Source: Spirosoma fluviale
Lineage (GTDB): Bacteria; Bacteroidota; Bacteroidia; Cytophagales; Spirosomataceae
DNA length: 64,000 bases
Reading direction: 5' to 3'
Assembly (NCBI GenBank): GCA_945906795.1
Contig: CAMDRO010000006.1
Location: forward strand, 1 to 64,000
Positions 17,764 to 23,523 of the stretch are shown here, piece after piece (positions within the stretch are counted from its first letter, which is position 1; each line of letters opens with the position of its first letter). The notes under the pieces are model-generated. The model saw nothing but the letters and a program-made list of their open reading frames with translations, had not been told where the DNA came from and made no database searches. Both the position numbers and the translations under genes were made by a program.

Positions 17764-18998
17764 TTTTTTTCAAGAATCCACTGATCCACGACAAGATCCA
17801 CGGATTTAGCGGAAGGAAACAAGGACACGGTTTTCCTCAATATATCTTCTACTACCGCATCTGGGCAAGAGGCCCCACAAGTCAAAAGTACACGAACTTT
17901 TTCTTTTTGAGGGATAAATTCATCCGACAAAACTTCAGCCTTGCCAACATTGTCAAAATGAAAAATCTGATTTTCTGAAATAATCTTATCTGCCGATTTA
18001 ATAAAATAAGTTGGAAGCTTATCAGCACACAAGTCCACTAAATGAGCGGTATTTGAGGAATTATACCCACCTGCGACAATGGCAAAATCCGCGTCTTCAG
18101 CTAGTAAACCATAAGTAGCACTTTGATTATCGTTTGTTGCATAACAAAGCGTATCCCGAGTATCCGCAAAATGAGAGGTGATTTGTTCAGCAGATAATTG
18201 ATAAAAATCGACGATTACCTCCCTTAAAAAATCGACGATTTCCTGTGTGTCGGTGGCCAACATGGTCGTTTGATTCACCACACCTATTCTAATTAAATCC
18301 TTTGACGGATTAAAACCCTCTGAATATTGACCCTCAAATTCCTTGTAGAATTCATCGGCATCTTTTTCAAGCCTAATGAAATCAGCTAATTGTTTGGCTT
18401 GATTGATATCTTTGATGATTAGCGTAGGAGTGACTGATTTAGAATGCGAAAAAGTGGCTTTTGTCTCTTCGTGGCTTGGTTTACCATGAACAATGACCGA
18501 ATAATTTTTTTGTCCAATCGAGGTTGCGCGATTCCAAACCTTTTCTACAAATGGGCAAGTGGTATCATAGGAATAAATATCAATGCCAATATTGGACAGT
18601 ATTTCTTGAATTTCAAGCGTAGTACCAAAGGCAGGGACAATGACCACATCGTCAGAAGTCAAGTGATCCCACGATACGAGCTGATTACCTAAGGTATCTT
18701 GGATGAATTGTACGCCTCGATCTAACAAATCTGCATTAACGGCAGGATTGTGAATCATCTCAGAAAGTAAAAATATGCGTTTATCCGGATTTTCTTCGAC
18801 TATTCGATAGGCCGTTTCAACCGCATTTTCTACCCCATAACAAAATCCAAAATGTCGGGATATTAAAATTTCTACCGGACCAAAATCGAAGTAGGATGGC
18901 TCGAAATTCTTTTTCATTTTATCCCAAAATCTCCTTGTTTCTTTGATTTTACCAATCAAATTACTTTTAAACAAAACAGGAATTGAAAATGACTTCAT
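17757..18998 (-). CDS. ispH: 4-hydroxy-3-methylbut-2-enyl diphosphate reductase
   Basis: The last enzyme of the MEP isoprenoid pathway, reducing HMBPP to IPP and DMAPP with a [4Fe-4S] cluster. The cluster cysteines are in RHFGFCYGVENAV, DTTCPFVEKVW and TCGASCPDAVVEDIL; CYATNDNQSA and HGKPSHEETKAT line the active site. I chose the ATG at 18998 (413 residues, beginning MKSFSIPVLFKS), which is how homologues in this order begin. An in-frame ATG at 19079 would add 27 residues. The protein is longer than the roughly 300-residue enterobacterial form. dxs, the first enzyme of the pathway, is elsewhere in this window at 41.6 kb. Confidence 0.93.
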   Translation of the reverse strand: MKSFSIPVLFKSNLIGKIKETRRFWDKMKKNFEPSYFDFGPVEILISRHFGFCYGVENAVETAYRIVEENPDKRIFLLSEMIHNPAVNADLLDRGVQFIQDTLGNQLVSWDHLTSDDVVIVPAFGTTLEIQEILSNIGIDIYSYDTTCPFVEKVWNRATSIGQKNYSVIVHGKPSHEETKATFSHSKSVTPTLIIKDINQAKQLADFIRLEKDADEFYKEFEGQYSEGFNPSKDLIRIGVVNQTTMLATDTQEIVDFLREVIVDFYQLSAEQITSHFADTRDTLCYATNDNQSATYGLLAEDADFAIVAGGYNSSNTAHLVDLCADKLPTYFIKSADKIISENQIFHFDNVGKAEVLSDEFIPQKEKVRVLLTCGASCPDAVVEDILRKTVSLFPSAKSVDLVVDQWILEKNQ

Positions 18999-19198
18999 TT
19001 TTTTTAACGTTCTTCTTACTGACAAACGATTAATACTACCGTTAAAATCACTAATTAGTGATTTACTTAATGGATCCATACCCTCTACTTTTACAAACTA
19101 ATAAATTGATTAACAGTTTTCAAAATTACATAGCTAATTATTAATATCCTTTTAATTCACCCGTTTAATAAATAAATTCTTTAAAATCGATCTAATCA

Positions 19199-19229
19199 TT
19201 GCCCCTTAAATTTACTTGTAGTACTTTTG
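19199..19229 (+). promoter_or_regulatory. Promoter of the xth/PD-(D/E)XK unit
   Basis: TTG at 19199-19201, 20-base spacer, and TACTTTTG at 19222-19229, an exact TAnnTTTG match. The start is predicted near 19235. It probably drives the five close-packed genes up to 21971, since no further promoter is evident between them. The rest of the gap from 19080 holds a minus-strand TAATTTTG box (19128..19121), possibly for ispH. Confidence 0.65.
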
Positions 19230-19284
19230 TTTGGTAAAAAATATCGGTCATCGTTTTTTACTCATCATTAATGTAAAAGCTTAA

Positions 19285-19896
19285 ATGAAAGATTCTAATT
19301 CAGCTAGGACTAGATTTGTACGCATACTCATTGGAAATCCAATCAGTAAGTTTGCCTTATCGTTCATTAAAAACCCAATCAACTTTTTATATGCGGGATT
19401 AGGGATCTTCGTAGTATTAATATCTTATGATAACACTTTTAGTGTCAAACCCACTGAGCAAAGCTTTTTCTCAGGAAAAATAAATTTTGGCATAGAGGAT
19501 TATCATCGCATACAAACCAATGAAGTGGAAGCTACCATAAAACCTGAAATGGGTGAAAATACGCTCACGATTACGGCGACAAACAAGGAAAATTTAGAAA
19601 CTGTTTATTTAAAAATATTCAAACTTAAAGGTCCGGGAACCTATTTTATTCCAGGAGATGGGGAAATCGAAAATATCGGAAATTTAATTAAGAATCTTGA
19701 TCATTTTAAAGAAAAAAACAATTTTTTCGAATCTACTTTGCCTAACAAAGAAGGCGTTCAAAATGGAGTAGGAAGGGTCAATATTAACGCAGTCACAGAA
19801 AAGGAAATTGAAGGCGAACTTATTTTAATAGGCAACAATTCCTCGGGAGATCAAGCAGTTCTAGAATCAGCCAAGTTCAAAATACATCTTCAATAA
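19285..19896 (+). CDS. Unknown protein with one N-terminal membrane helix
   Basis: A 203-residue protein. A basic N-terminus is followed by one hydrophobic helix at about 32-48 (FLYAGLGIFVVLISY) and then a soluble region with beta-rich character (NTLTITATNKENLETVYLKIFKL, EIEGELILIGN). The helix is likely an uncleaved anchor, leaving the domain outside the cytoplasm. I do not recognise a family. It is first in a five-gene unit with exonuclease III, separated by 11 bases from the next gene, and has a good promoter. Confidence 0.65.
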   Translation: MKDSNSARTRFVRILIGNPISKFALSFIKNPINFLYAGLGIFVVLISYDNTFSVKPTEQSFFSGKINFGIEDYHRIQTNEVEATIKPEMGENTLTITATNKENLETVYLKIFKLKGPGTYFIPGDGEIENIGNLIKNLDHFKEKNNFFESTLPNKEGVQNGVGRVNINAVTEKEIEGELILIGNNSSGDQAVLESAKFKIHLQ

Positions 19897-19907
19897 TCAT
19901 CAATTTC

Positions 19908-20273
19908 ATGGAATTCGAGCCAGCTATAGTTAAAGAAGCATGGGAATTAATCCTTGACTTTCTTGAAAAACAGTTTAATAAAAGGCCTGCCGATCTTGAG
20001 TCTGTATTATTTTTGATTGGTGTTCAAGAATTAGGGCATGGCCATGTCCATTTCACCAAAGAGCAAAAACAAGACTTAATGCATATCGCAACCTGTAAGG
20101 TTTTAAGTTATAGCGGATTTTATTCGTTAGATGGCAAAGATGCTGAAGGGTGGCCACATTGGGAATTAATTCAAAATTTACCTCCTTTAAATCTAAAAGA
20201 ACAAGAGATTTTAATCAAATCACATGTCATACATTACTTCAAAACAGAAGTCCTAATGGAAGAGATGTTATGA
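19908..20273 (+). CDS. Conserved small protein of unknown function
   Basis: A 121-residue soluble protein, rich in helices, with a His cluster (GHGHVHF, about residues 44-50) that could bind a metal. It has VKEAWELILDFLEKQFNKR at the start and YSGFYSLDGKDAEGWPHWEL in the middle. I recognise no named domain. It overlaps the xth start by 4 bases (ATGA), so the two are translationally coupled, which suggests a link to DNA repair, but this is inference from position only. Confidence 0.7.
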   Translation: MEFEPAIVKEAWELILDFLEKQFNKRPADLESVLFLIGVQELGHGHVHFTKEQKQDLMHIATCKVLSYSGFYSLDGKDAEGWPHWELIQNLPPLNLKEQEILIKSHVIHYFKTEVLMEEML

Positions 20274-21034
20274 AAATAATCAGTTATAATGTGAACGGCA
20301 TTCGGGCTGCCATTCAAAAGGGATTCATCGCCTGGCTTTCACAGGAAAATCCAGATATCATTTGTCTACAGGAACTGAAGGCAGAGGAGGTACAAGTTGA
20401 CTTAGACGAAATCACCTCATTAGGCTATCATATTTATTGGCAATCAGCGCAAAAAAAAGGATATTCGGGAGTAGGTATTTTCACAAAAATAAAGCCTGTT
20501 TCCGTTCAATATGGATGTGGAATTGAAAAATACGACCTTGAAGGAAGAGTCATCCAAGTAAATTTCGAAAACTATTCGGTCATGAGTGTATATATACCAT
20601 CTGGGTCCAGTGGCGAGGATAGACAATCCTTTAAAATGGAATGGTTGGCTGATTTTCAAGCGTATACAAATGAATTAGTAAAAAATCATCCAAACATAAT
20701 TATAGCCGGCGATTATAATATCTGCCATAGAGCCATTGATATTCATAATCCTAAATCAAATGCAAATAGCTCTGGGTTCTTGCCTGAAGAGCGCGAATGG
20801 ATGGAAAATTACATACACCATGGATTTGTGGATACTTTTCGATGGATTCATCCTACACTCGATCATCAATATTCCTGGTGGAGTTACCGAGCAAATGCGA
20901 GAGAAAAAAATTTAGGTTGGCGTATCGACTATTTACTAGCCAGTCAATCTATGGCTCTATCAATTAAAAATGCATCTATTTTAGCTGACATCAAACATTC
21001 AGACCATTGTCCCATCTTATTAGAAATCAATTAA
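20270..21034 (+). CDS. xth: Exodeoxyribonuclease III
   Basis: A 254-residue AP endonuclease/3'-exonuclease of the EEP superfamily. Motifs in order are SYNVNGIRAAI (catalytic Asn), CLQELKAEEVQVD (metal-binding Glu), GDYNICHRAIDIHNP (catalytic Asp and Asn), WRIDYLLAS and SDHCPILLEI (catalytic Asp-His pair). It incises abasic sites and trims 3' blocks in base-excision repair. The true start is the ATG at 20270; the open frame continues upstream to 20150 but that part lies in the preceding gene. The next gene begins 1 base after the stop. Confidence 0.95.
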   Translation: MKIISYNVNGIRAAIQKGFIAWLSQENPDIICLQELKAEEVQVDLDEITSLGYHIYWQSAQKKGYSGVGIFTKIKPVSVQYGCGIEKYDLEGRVIQVNFENYSVMSVYIPSGSSGEDRQSFKMEWLADFQAYTNELVKNHPNIIIAGDYNICHRAIDIHNPKSNANSSGFLPEEREWMENYIHHGFVDTFRWIHPTLDHQYSWWSYRANAREKNLGWRIDYLLASQSMALSIKNASILADIKHSDHCPILLEIN

Positions 21035-21035
21035 T

Positions 21036-21338
21036 ATGCACTTCGAAAAACACGTCTTTATTTGCACCAATGACAAGGATGCTCCCAAAAAATGCTGTGG
21101 ATCTGCACATGGTATGGATTTGATACAAGCCTTTAAGGATGAATGGGCTAAATCAGGAAATACAAATAAAATAAGAATTCAAAAATCAGGTTGTTTGGAT
21201 TTTTGTGGCAAAGGTCCCACGATGGTCATTTACCCGGAAGGCGTTTTTTACGGAAATGTCCAGTTGGAAGATGTATCTGAAATAACTGAGCAACATTTAA
21301 TTGGCGATCAGATTGTATCCCGACGCCAAATTGGATAA
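21036..21338 (+). CDS. Thioredoxin-like [2Fe-2S] ferredoxin
   Basis: A 100-residue protein with the pattern of thioredoxin-fold 2Fe-2S ferredoxins: FICTNDKDAPKKCCG near the N-terminus and SGCLDFCGKGPTMVIYPEG in the second half. The ligands are probably Cys10, one or both of Cys20 and Cys21, Cys55 and Cys59. Such proteins carry electrons or act as redox sensors and are related to the NuoE fold. It sits 1 base behind xth and 9 bases before the PD-(D/E)XK-like gene, an unusual context. Partner unknown. Confidence 0.88.
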   Translation: MHFEKHVFICTNDKDAPKKCCGSAHGMDLIQAFKDEWAKSGNTNKIRIQKSGCLDFCGKGPTMVIYPEGVFYGNVQLEDVSEITEQHLIGDQIVSRRQIG

Positions 21339-21347
21339 ATTGCGAAC

Positions 21348-21971
21348 ATGTTATATCGCCTCTATCCAACGCTTTTAAATTCATTTTCACTCTATCTAAG
21401 CCAATCCCGAGATGCTTCAGGTAAGATTATTGTGGATGAAATTGAGCTGATTGAACGAATTAATCGAACCAAAAAACCGACAACTAAGGCCCAACAAAAA
21501 GGCGTAGATTTTGAAAGAGCTGTCACACTAGGAGAAAATGAGGAACTTTTCAAGGAAGGAATCATTGACCAAGCGAGAAATTTGATTCCCGGCAAATATA
21601 GAACCCAATTTTACCTTGAATCAAGGTACAAAAATGCGCAAATTTATGGCTATGTGGATGGGATAGGTGACAGCATCGCTTTTGATTTAAAAAGCACATC
21701 GTTTTATGAGCCAGGCCGGTTTCAAAATAACCATCAAAATTTGTACTTATTAGGCCTTCAAAAATATGGGATTGAGCGTTTAGACTACATCATCACAGAC
21801 TTTACCACGATTTTTGTAGAAAGCTATGAGTTAAAAACCTACGATTTCAACCCACTTTATATTCAAATTGAAAAATTCATTTTATTTTTAGAAGACAACA
21901 AAAAATTCATTCGGGACAAAAAAATCTTTGATCGAAAAACGAATGATAATCAAATGTCCCTTTTTGAATAA
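21348..21971 (+). CDS. PD-(D/E)XK nuclease-like protein
   Basis: A 207-residue protein not obviously annotated by a named family. I see a PD-(D/E)XK-like core: KGVDFERAV (helix with conserved Glu), GYVDGIGDSIAFDLKST with the Asp followed by DLK as the D...(D/E)xK pair, and QNLYLLGLQKYG, resembling the Q-x3-Y/L helix of RecB- and Cas4-type nucleases. There is no Cys cluster of Cas4. The C-terminus is charged and ends NQMSLFE, similar to a beta-clamp-binding QxSLF peptide. It is last in the unit with xth. Nuclease activity is inferred from motifs; confidence in the fold is moderate. Confidence 0.65.
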   Translation: MLYRLYPTLLNSFSLYLSQSRDASGKIIVDEIELIERINRTKKPTTKAQQKGVDFERAVTLGENEELFKEGIIDQARNLIPGKYRTQFYLESRYKNAQIYGYVDGIGDSIAFDLKSTSFYEPGRFQNNHQNLYLLGLQKYGIERLDYIITDFTTIFVESYELKTYDFNPLYIQIEKFILFLEDNKKFIRDKKIFDRKTNDNQMSLFE

Positions 21972-22661
21972 TTAGACCAAGTAACTGCGCAGTTCCGTCA
22001 AATGTGTAATTTGGATTTGCGCCTGAGAGTCCACCCGATTAAGATTCAAATGAATACTCCGAATTCCTGCGTTTTCCGCACCTTGGATGTCGGCAATTGG
22101 ATGATCCCCCACCATAACTACTTCATGTGCCAAGCAATTAGCTCTTTTTAGGGAATAGGTAAAGAACTTAATGTCTGGCTTTTGCGTGCCAACTTGCTGT
22201 GAGGTGATGATTTCTTGAAAGCAATGTTTCAAACCGCAGGCCTCCACTTTGACAAATTGAATATCATCAAACCCATTGGTCAAGATAAAAAGAGGATATT
22301 TCTGCGCTAGCTCTTGAATTATTTCAGAAGCCCCGTCAAGCATATGTTTTTTTCTAGGAGTTCGGTATAGAAATTCACTCGAAAATTTTTGGGGGTCACC
22401 CTCATAGCCCAACTGTGAAAAAAAAAGTTTAAATCTTGTTTCCCTCAGCTCCATTTGTGTGATTTTTTTCGATTGATAATCATCCCACAGTTGGTTATTT
22501 AATACGTTGAAACTATTCCAAATATTGTCTTTTTCTACTTCAAACGTGTTTGTTAGGTTAAACTCGTCAACCAAATCCAGTAAAACTTCTCGAGCATTTC
22601 GGTCATGATCCCAAAGCGTGTGATCCCAATCAAAAAATATGGCCTTTGGGTTAAATTTCAT
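21972..22661 (-). CDS. YjjG-family noncanonical pyrimidine nucleotidase (HAD)
   Basis: A 229-residue HAD phosphatase. Motif I is FFDWDHTLWDHD, motif II ILTNGFDDIQ, motif III Lys in TQKPDIKFF, and motif IV MVGDHPIADIQGA. The insert in the first domain matches the YjjG type, which dephosphorylates modified or noncanonical pyrimidine monophosphates and thus cleans the nucleotide pool. The stop abuts the PD-(D/E)XK gene, convergent. A minus-strand TACCTTTG box at 22673..22666 is only 5 bases from the ATG, so the mRNA may be almost leaderless. Confidence 0.88.
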   Translation of the reverse strand: MKFNPKAIFFDWDHTLWDHDRNAREVLLDLVDEFNLTNTFEVEKDNIWNSFNVLNNQLWDDYQSKKITQMELRETRFKLFFSQLGYEGDPQKFSSEFLYRTPRKKHMLDGASEIIQELAQKYPLFILTNGFDDIQFVKVEACGLKHCFQEIITSQQVGTQKPDIKFFTYSLKRANCLAHEVVMVGDHPIADIQGAENAGIRSIHLNLNRVDSQAQIQITHLTELRSYLV

Positions 22662-22665
22662 ATGG

Positions 22666-22691
22666 CAAAGGTAATAAATAAGCTACCTTTG
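22666..22691. promoter_or_regulatory. Two divergent TACCTTTG boxes
   Basis: TACCTTTG on the minus strand at 22673..22666 (for the YjjG gene) and on the plus strand at 22684-22691 (for the exonuclease gene), 10 bases apart. Both match TAnnTTTG, but neither has a clear TTG at -33. Confidence 0.45.
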
Positions 22692-22713
22692 TTCCCATAA
22701 AAATGGACTTTAC

Positions 22714-23523
22714 ATGGAACATCAATTAAAATTAAATAAACCGCTCGCATTTTTCGATTTAGAGACGACTGGGGTCATGGTCAACAAAGACCGCATTGTT
22801 GAAATAGCTATAGCGAAAGCAAATGTTGACGGCACCATCGAAGTAAAAACAAGAAGGGTAAATCCTGGGATTCCTATCCCCTTGGAAGCGTCCTTAGTTC
22901 ATGGAATTTATGATGATGATGTAAAAGATGAACCCCAATTTAAGCAAGTGGCCAAATCTTTATCAGGATTTTTGGAAGGTTGTGACTTGGCTGGATTTAA
23001 TTCTAATCGCTTCGATGTACCCATGTTGGTGGAAGAATTTTATAGAAACGAAATTGATTTTGACATGAAAAATCGAAAGTTGATTGACGCCCAAAGAATT
23101 TTTCACTTGATGGAACCCAGAAATTTAACAGCCGCTTTCAAGTTTTATTGTGGTAAGGATTTAATAGGTGCGCATGGAGCCGAGGCGGATGTATTAGCTA
23201 CCTTAGAAGTATTAAATGCCCAAGTAAAAAGATATGAAGAGGTTTCGTTGAAAGATGAAAATGGCAAGGAGTACTTCCCTATCCAAAATGACATGTCAAA
23301 ATTACATGAATTAACGATGTCAAATTCCATCGATTTCGCTAATCGCATGGTGTACAATAAGGAGAGGATTCCTGTTTTTAATTTCGGAAAGTATTCCGGC
23401 AGATCCGTTACGGAAGTATTAAAAAGTGACCCTTCCTATTATGATTGGATTTTAAAGGGTGACTTTGCGATGGATACAAAGAAAAAATTAACTGAAATTA
23501 AGTTGCAAGGATTTCAGCGGTAA
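22714..23523 (+). CDS. DEDDh 3'-5' exonuclease
   Basis: A 269-residue exonuclease of the DnaQ/RNase T superfamily. ExoI is AFFDLETTGV (Asp, Glu), ExoII GFNSNRFDVPML (Asp), ExoIII HGAEADVLAT (His and Asp), hence DEDDh. The C-terminal segment FNFGKYSGRSVTEVLKSDPSYYDWIL is a small domain found at the end of several bacterial exonucleases, including ExoX. It may act in proofreading, repair or RNA trimming; the sequence does not decide. A TACCTTTG box (22684-22691) gives a leader of about 17 bases. Confidence 0.9.
   Translation: MEHQLKLNKPLAFFDLETTGVMVNKDRIVEIAIAKANVDGTIEVKTRRVNPGIPIPLEASLVHGIYDDDVKDEPQFKQVAKSLSGFLEGCDLAGFNSNRFDVPMLVEEFYRNEIDFDMKNRKLIDAQRIFHLMEPRNLTAAFKFYCGKDLIGAHGAEADVLATLEVLNAQVKRYEEVSLKDENGKEYFPIQNDMSKLHELTMSNSIDFANRMVYNKERIPVFNFGKYSGRSVTEVLKSDPSYYDWILKGDFAMDTKKKLTEIKLQGFQR

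Follow-up and report, generated by a model that had tools for sequence, protein, structure and literature searches.

Exonuclease III enzymes of the Xth family cut AP sites and blocked 3' ends, and nucleases of the PD-(D/E)XK type are recognized by a motif made up of an acidic residue, (D/E)xK and Q..Y. Nucleases such as Cas4 and AddB hold an Fe-S cluster in cis. A free carrier of such a cluster is represented by the solved structure 1f37, which we take to be the Aquifex aeolicus [2Fe-2S] ferredoxin of thioredoxin-like fold. Sak4 is described as a phage single-strand annealing protein in the title of PMC5928155. Counterparts of these systems are found in the five-gene unit analysed here (g1 to g5), each with a difference. 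The third gene product, g3, is like exonuclease III (TIGR00633) over its full length but its gene is coupled to g2 through an ATGA overlap, and g4 shares the four cysteines of 1f37 but in some genomes of the family lies next to a nuclease gene. The product of g5 resembles the phage exonucleases lambda Exo, RecE and LHK-Exo in its conserved residues and likely fold, and probably has a fold class in common with the Cas4/AddB Fe-S nucleases, but contains no cysteine and would thus hold no cluster in cis. Finally, g5 homologues follow a Sak4-like gene in phage Sak4-exonuclease pairs, whereas no Sak4-like gene was found within the window (the whole 64-kb stretch of DNA that was analysed, held in an assembly of 2.6 Mb) and g5 itself is present in 106 of 121 genomes of the family.

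Table 1. Features of the five-gene unit and of the region in front of it (positions in the window)
Feature	Coordinates	Strand	Description
Bacteroidota-type promoter motif TTG-N20-TACTTTTG	19199..19229	+	found by pattern search
g1	19285..19896	+	203 aa; single hydrophobic N-terminal stretch (read from sequence); without family match
g2	19908..20273	+	121 aa; predicted helices and beta hairpin; Bacteroidia-wide family without Pfam/NCBIfam model
g3 (xth)	20270..21034	+	exodeoxyribonuclease III, TIGR00633
g4	21036..21338	+	thioredoxin-like [2Fe-2S] ferredoxin; likely ligands C10, C21, C53, C57
g5	21348..21971	+	PD-(D/E)XK exonuclease-like protein; phrog_35319 relative

An earlier note made from the sequence had described five same-strand ORFs separated by 11, -4, 1 and 9 bases behind one promoter and encoding a membrane protein, an unknown protein, Xth, a [2Fe-2S] protein and a PD-(D/E)XK-like protein; the coordinates confirm the arrangement and the names proved right [Table 1]. 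The start of xth was taken as the ATG at 20270, which shares four bases with the g2 stop codon in the form of ATGA, the ORF list having a longer GTG ORF from 20150. A single promoter motif, the sole match to its pattern on the + strand within 19000-22100, ends 56 bases before the start of g1; across the 64-kb window the pattern occurs seven times per strand, mononucleotide shuffles giving 2.3. It is kept upstream of g1 in seven of the eight relatives tested, the remaining one (L237) having the -7 part only. As given in PMC2483708, the Bacteroidota promoter consensus reads TAnnTTTG/TTTG. A sigma-70-type scan returned a promoter count not above chance, and no terminator-like site was found in 18000-23500 (4.0 in shuffles). 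A convergent yjjG-like HAD gene (TIGR02254, 175 bits) has its stop at 21972, the base directly after the end of g5. This nucleotidase gene (21972-22661) is followed by a DnaQ/ExoX-like exonuclease gene (22714-23523), and a yjjG-like gene adjoins g5 also in L235-L241, L244 and L245, which makes nuclease-nucleotidase another kept neighbourhood.

The earlier note had further suggested that the five genes may form a module linked to repair or DNA uptake, with gene order in relatives set beforehand as a test. We surveyed 121 genomes of the family, each searched for all five genes, and found g1 in 26 of them (one match being weak), g2 in 117, xth in 120, g4 in 103 and g5 in 106. With adjacency defined as same strand and a gap of at most 300 bases, and with the weak g1 match of G448 and weak second matches of g2, g4 and g5 left out, g1 adjoins g2 in 10 of 25 genomes, g2 adjoins xth in at least 56 of 117, xth adjoins g4 in 12 of 102 and g4 adjoins g5 in 24 of 88; the g2-xth figures in this work are lower bounds since only the best xth match per genome was used. 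All five genes stand together in just 10 of the 121 genomes, so that a repair or uptake module is not supported at the five-gene level. The outcome of the test was accordingly divided: the five-gene order is not kept, and the older g2-xth and g4-g5 pairs are. Nine of these ten genomes are among the ten of the organism's own genus and the other, G456, represents one close genus on the next branch of the g5 tree; the full set was detected in no other of the 121 genomes. The tenth genome of the genus, G520, has no g1 match and yet keeps g2-xth-g4-g5.

Within this narrow range the arrangement is well preserved. Among the best 80 of 563 loci, 11 of the 13 nearest have all five genes in the same order and the other two are interrupted by contig ends, L042 after g4 and L047 inside g1. 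Identity of g2 within the same best 80 of 563 is 95-98% in the nearest loci, which come from Cytophagales or Cytophagaceae MAGs and records labelled Spirosoma fluviale, and 73% further off in Aquirufa ecclesiirivi. The genus is probably Aquirufa or a near relative of it. The tight spacing is kept, among these 80, though g2 falls to 72% identity, which may reflect selection for co-expression.

Two other genomes of the family are suggestive of how the unit came about. In G434, an intermediate arrangement, ispH is followed by g1-CMD-g2-xth-g4-g5 and then by yjjG and a dnaQ-like gene, CMD being an AhpD-like gene of the carboxymuconolactone decarboxylase family (PF02627) that lies upstream of g2 in many Cytophagales. 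In G432, ispH, g1, g4, g5 and yjjG lie together near 4.13 Mb and CMD-g2-xth at 3.75 Mb, some 376 kb apart. Strong CMD matches were obtained in 33 of the 121 family genomes, a count that excludes 28 genomes with weak matches only, and adjoin g2 in 32 of the 33; none of the ten genomes of the own genus gave a match. From the observed order, spacing, promoter motif and intermediate arrangements we infer both co-transcription and a direction of events, and read the unit as an operon of the genus that was put together recently by rearrangement from older blocks, with a probability of about three in four. That it is a real operon in its own genus is very probable. An old Cytophagales block consisting of the AhpD-like CMD gene, g2 and xth would have been inserted between an ispH-g1 block and a ferredoxin-nuclease-yjjG block; loss of CMD and then shrinkage of the gaps would have followed, leaving one promoter before g1 able to read all five genes. 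The position of G434 in the g5 tree is not fixed and is compatible with one joining event or with an older joined state lost elsewhere. As an operon the unit is unremarkable, older blocks having only recently been joined, and the part of it that deserves attention is the link between g2 and xth.

By sequence, g3 is exonuclease III: it matches TIGR00633 with 313.2 bits (cut-off 99) over residues 1-254, and it is the one xth copy found in the host genome. The gene before it, g2, was detected in 125 of 148 genomes of an order sample, in 218 of 247 Bacteroidia genomes and in 77 of 247 genomes of a phylum sample, nearly always as one match per genome. Of 122 Cytophagales genomes, at least 60, belonging to 14 of 18 families, have their best xth match next to g2 with a gap of at most 600 bases; the other three of the 125 g2-containing genomes were left out for lack of an xth match that reached the cut-off. 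The breadth of this association bears on the alternative that rearrangement and genome shrinkage explain the short gaps and that no pair of genes is functionally meaningful. The unit is recent, and the ten genomes that carry it whole are small (2.6-3.2 Mb, most other family genomes being 4-8 Mb), as such an explanation would have it; some of the Cytophagales genomes in which g2 adjoins xth are, however, 9 Mb or larger, and we consider compaction by itself rather unlikely.

In another Bacteroidia family the order g2 - cyclophilin - xth occurs in four of the six genomes with loci fetched, and the neighbours of g2 extend beyond repair genes, being cyclophilin or class II (D/K/N) aminoacyl-tRNA synthetase genes in other groups. 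A 16S rRNA gene starts 276-807 bases downstream of g2 in 4 of 17 loci scanned; these loci (L066, L069, L071 and L080, from Runella, Telluribacter and a Cytophagales MAG) are at contig ends. Bit scores of xth in the family genomes range from 278 to 318 for copies adjoining g2 and from 254 to 284 for most unlinked best copies, three unlinked copies located 0.5-2 kb from g2 scoring 298-300. In some genera a different subfamily may have taken the place of the linked xth. An obligate pairing of g2 with Xth is excluded by some small Cytophagales genomes that have xth and no detected g2 (e.g. G318, G331 and G358), as well as by the 61 of 117 family genomes with g2 in which the best xth lies elsewhere.

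Searches of 30 divergent g2 members against Pfam and NCBIfam gave best E-values of 0.083 and 0.031, respectively, each in one or two members; g2 of the window itself matched no family, its one PHROG match having an E-value of 0.26. The predicted g2 structure (pLDDT 88.7) consists of four helices and a hairpin; compared with solved structures, it yielded no Foldseek match at E<=0.001 and a best Z of 4.0, and the best E-value of a sequence profile was 0.66. An enzyme using H59 and C63 is unlikely, these residues being invariant in 50 Cytophagales rows but replaced in other classes. Outside Cytophagales, the residues that stay conserved seem to have a structural and not a catalytic role, which favours an adaptor or regulator, and g2 may perhaps be a small non-catalytic adaptor-like protein that works with or regulates Xth.

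A functional repair module would go considerably further than this, in that g2, Xth, the ferredoxin and the nuclease would all cooperate, with, for instance, the ferredoxin giving electrons to, or sensing redox for, oxidative DNA repair and g1 acting as an anchor. The age of the g2-xth pair and the spacing and order shared by the nearest of the best 80 of 563 loci are in keeping with such a module, and the lost AhpD/CMD-like neighbour would suit a response to oxidative stress. Cooperation of all the products is nonetheless decidedly unlikely given the confinement of the complete set, among the 121 genomes, to the genus and one close genus, the rarity of g1 in the family and the small fraction of genomes in which the ferredoxin and nuclease genes, both widespread, are adjacent. 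For its part, g1 matched no family in Pfam, NCBIfam or PHROG and would be a membrane-anchored protein riding along. The link to DNA uptake suggested in the earlier note finds nothing at the locus to support it, the unit having no uptake gene: a ComF-like gene, whose phosphoribosyltransferase match is slightly below the Pfam cut-off, lies near g2-xth in other Cytophagales only and is not found beside g2-xth here. A defence system was likewise rejected, none of g1 to g5 having a PADLOC match.

The product of g4 aligns with 1f37 over residues 5-97 (E 9.5e-17), C10, C21, C53 and C57 being matched to all four ferredoxin cysteines; the four residues, presumably the cluster ligands, are invariant in seven of seven sequences, and g4 would serve as an electron carrier that nothing in the data ties to g5. 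The proposal that a Cas4/AddB-like Fe-S nuclease has been split, with g4 providing the cluster on a separate small protein, can draw on the position of the ferredoxin gene immediately before the nuclease gene in 24 of 88 genomes and on the likeness of the g5 model to AddAB and Cas4, among others, but is highly improbable in view of the cysteine-free g5, the complete free-ferredoxin site of g4 and the 64 of 88 genomes with both genes (some of them fragmented drafts) in which the two were not found adjacent.

For g5, neither Pfam nor NCBIfam gave a match; the protein is related to phrog_35319 (3.6e-13), a family whose function is listed as unknown. Its residues D104, D113, K115, Q130 and Y133 are invariant in ten of ten sequences, and in six of six that include two Bacteroides phage proteins, so that an acidic residue, (D/E)xK and Q..Y of the PD-(D/E)XK motif are all conserved; Glu56 is replaced in the phage homologues. 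The predicted model is weak (pLDDT 56.4) and gave no Foldseek match at E<=0.001. A second aligner placed this weak model closest to AddAB (Z 7.5, 114 residues, rmsd 3.7), in a range of Z that may be unspecific according to the warning of the tool, and its top rows were AddAB, RecE, MGME1, LHK-Exo, Cas4 and lambda Exo, nearly all of which we take to be PD-(D/E)XK nucleases. As no Pfam nuclease model exceeded its cut-off for g5 (PF12705 reached 15.3 bits, with a cut-off of 22, in L249 only), we limit the claim, by motif and fold, to a protein that works like a PD-(D/E)XK nuclease. Overall, g5 looks like a nuclease of this kind and would be a DNA exonuclease that depends on metal and belongs to the lambda-Exo/RecE/AddB/Cas4 fold class.

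The surroundings of outlying g5 homologues are suggestive of a more specific role. Directly upstream of seven of nine phage, prophage-like or otherwise outlying homologues lies a Sak4-like gene; the seven are a second copy in G503, those of Bacteroides phages BS-TP2 and BS-TP3, three IMG/VR contigs and one G238 locus. In L005, one of the two that remain, a Sak4-like piece cut by the locus end lies about 1.4 kb upstream of the matched stretch, and the L257 record begins too near the match to show what precedes it. The second G503 copy (L249 3223-3804), present besides an ordinary one, overlaps the preceding Sak4-like gene (phrog_124, 2.5e-42) by four bases and lies near two integrase-like genes (PF13102), from which we conclude that it is probably prophage; a viral-contig scan with this prophage-like copy found no relative. 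We note that G238 (L006 168-1914), where the Sak4-like gene is just upstream of the g5 relative, is another Bacteroidota genome, that the homologues of BS-TP2 (L251 4983-5813) and BS-TP3 (L252 3560-4378) are annotated as HNH endonucleases while carrying the conserved PD-(D/E)XK-like residues, and that the Sak4-like stretch of BS-TP3 lies inside a gene annotated as terminase large subunit. No Sak4-like gene was seen near the ordinary g5 copies in the stretches fetched from seven family genomes. In view of the recurrence of Sak4-like genes upstream of the outlying homologues, the cellular g5 is probably the equivalent of the exonuclease in phage Sak4-exonuclease recombination pairs. It is best read as a phage-type recombination exonuclease that is now a standard gene of the family, transfer from phage to cell and the reverse both being possible.

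Taken at its widest, the evidence could be read to mean that g2, so far unrecognised and close to universal in Bacteroidia, is dedicated to exonuclease III as its partner or regulator in base-excision repair and, at the same time, that g5 is a Sak4-linked recombination exonuclease of phages taken over as a standard family gene; we hold this double proposal tentatively and think it unlikely to be right in full. The phage context of g5 gives phrog_35319 a likely role as the exonuclease partner of Sak4. In g2, a protein that occurs once in most of the Bacteroidia genomes sampled and is often encoded beside the AP endonuclease gene emerges from outside the coverage of Pfam and NCBIfam models.
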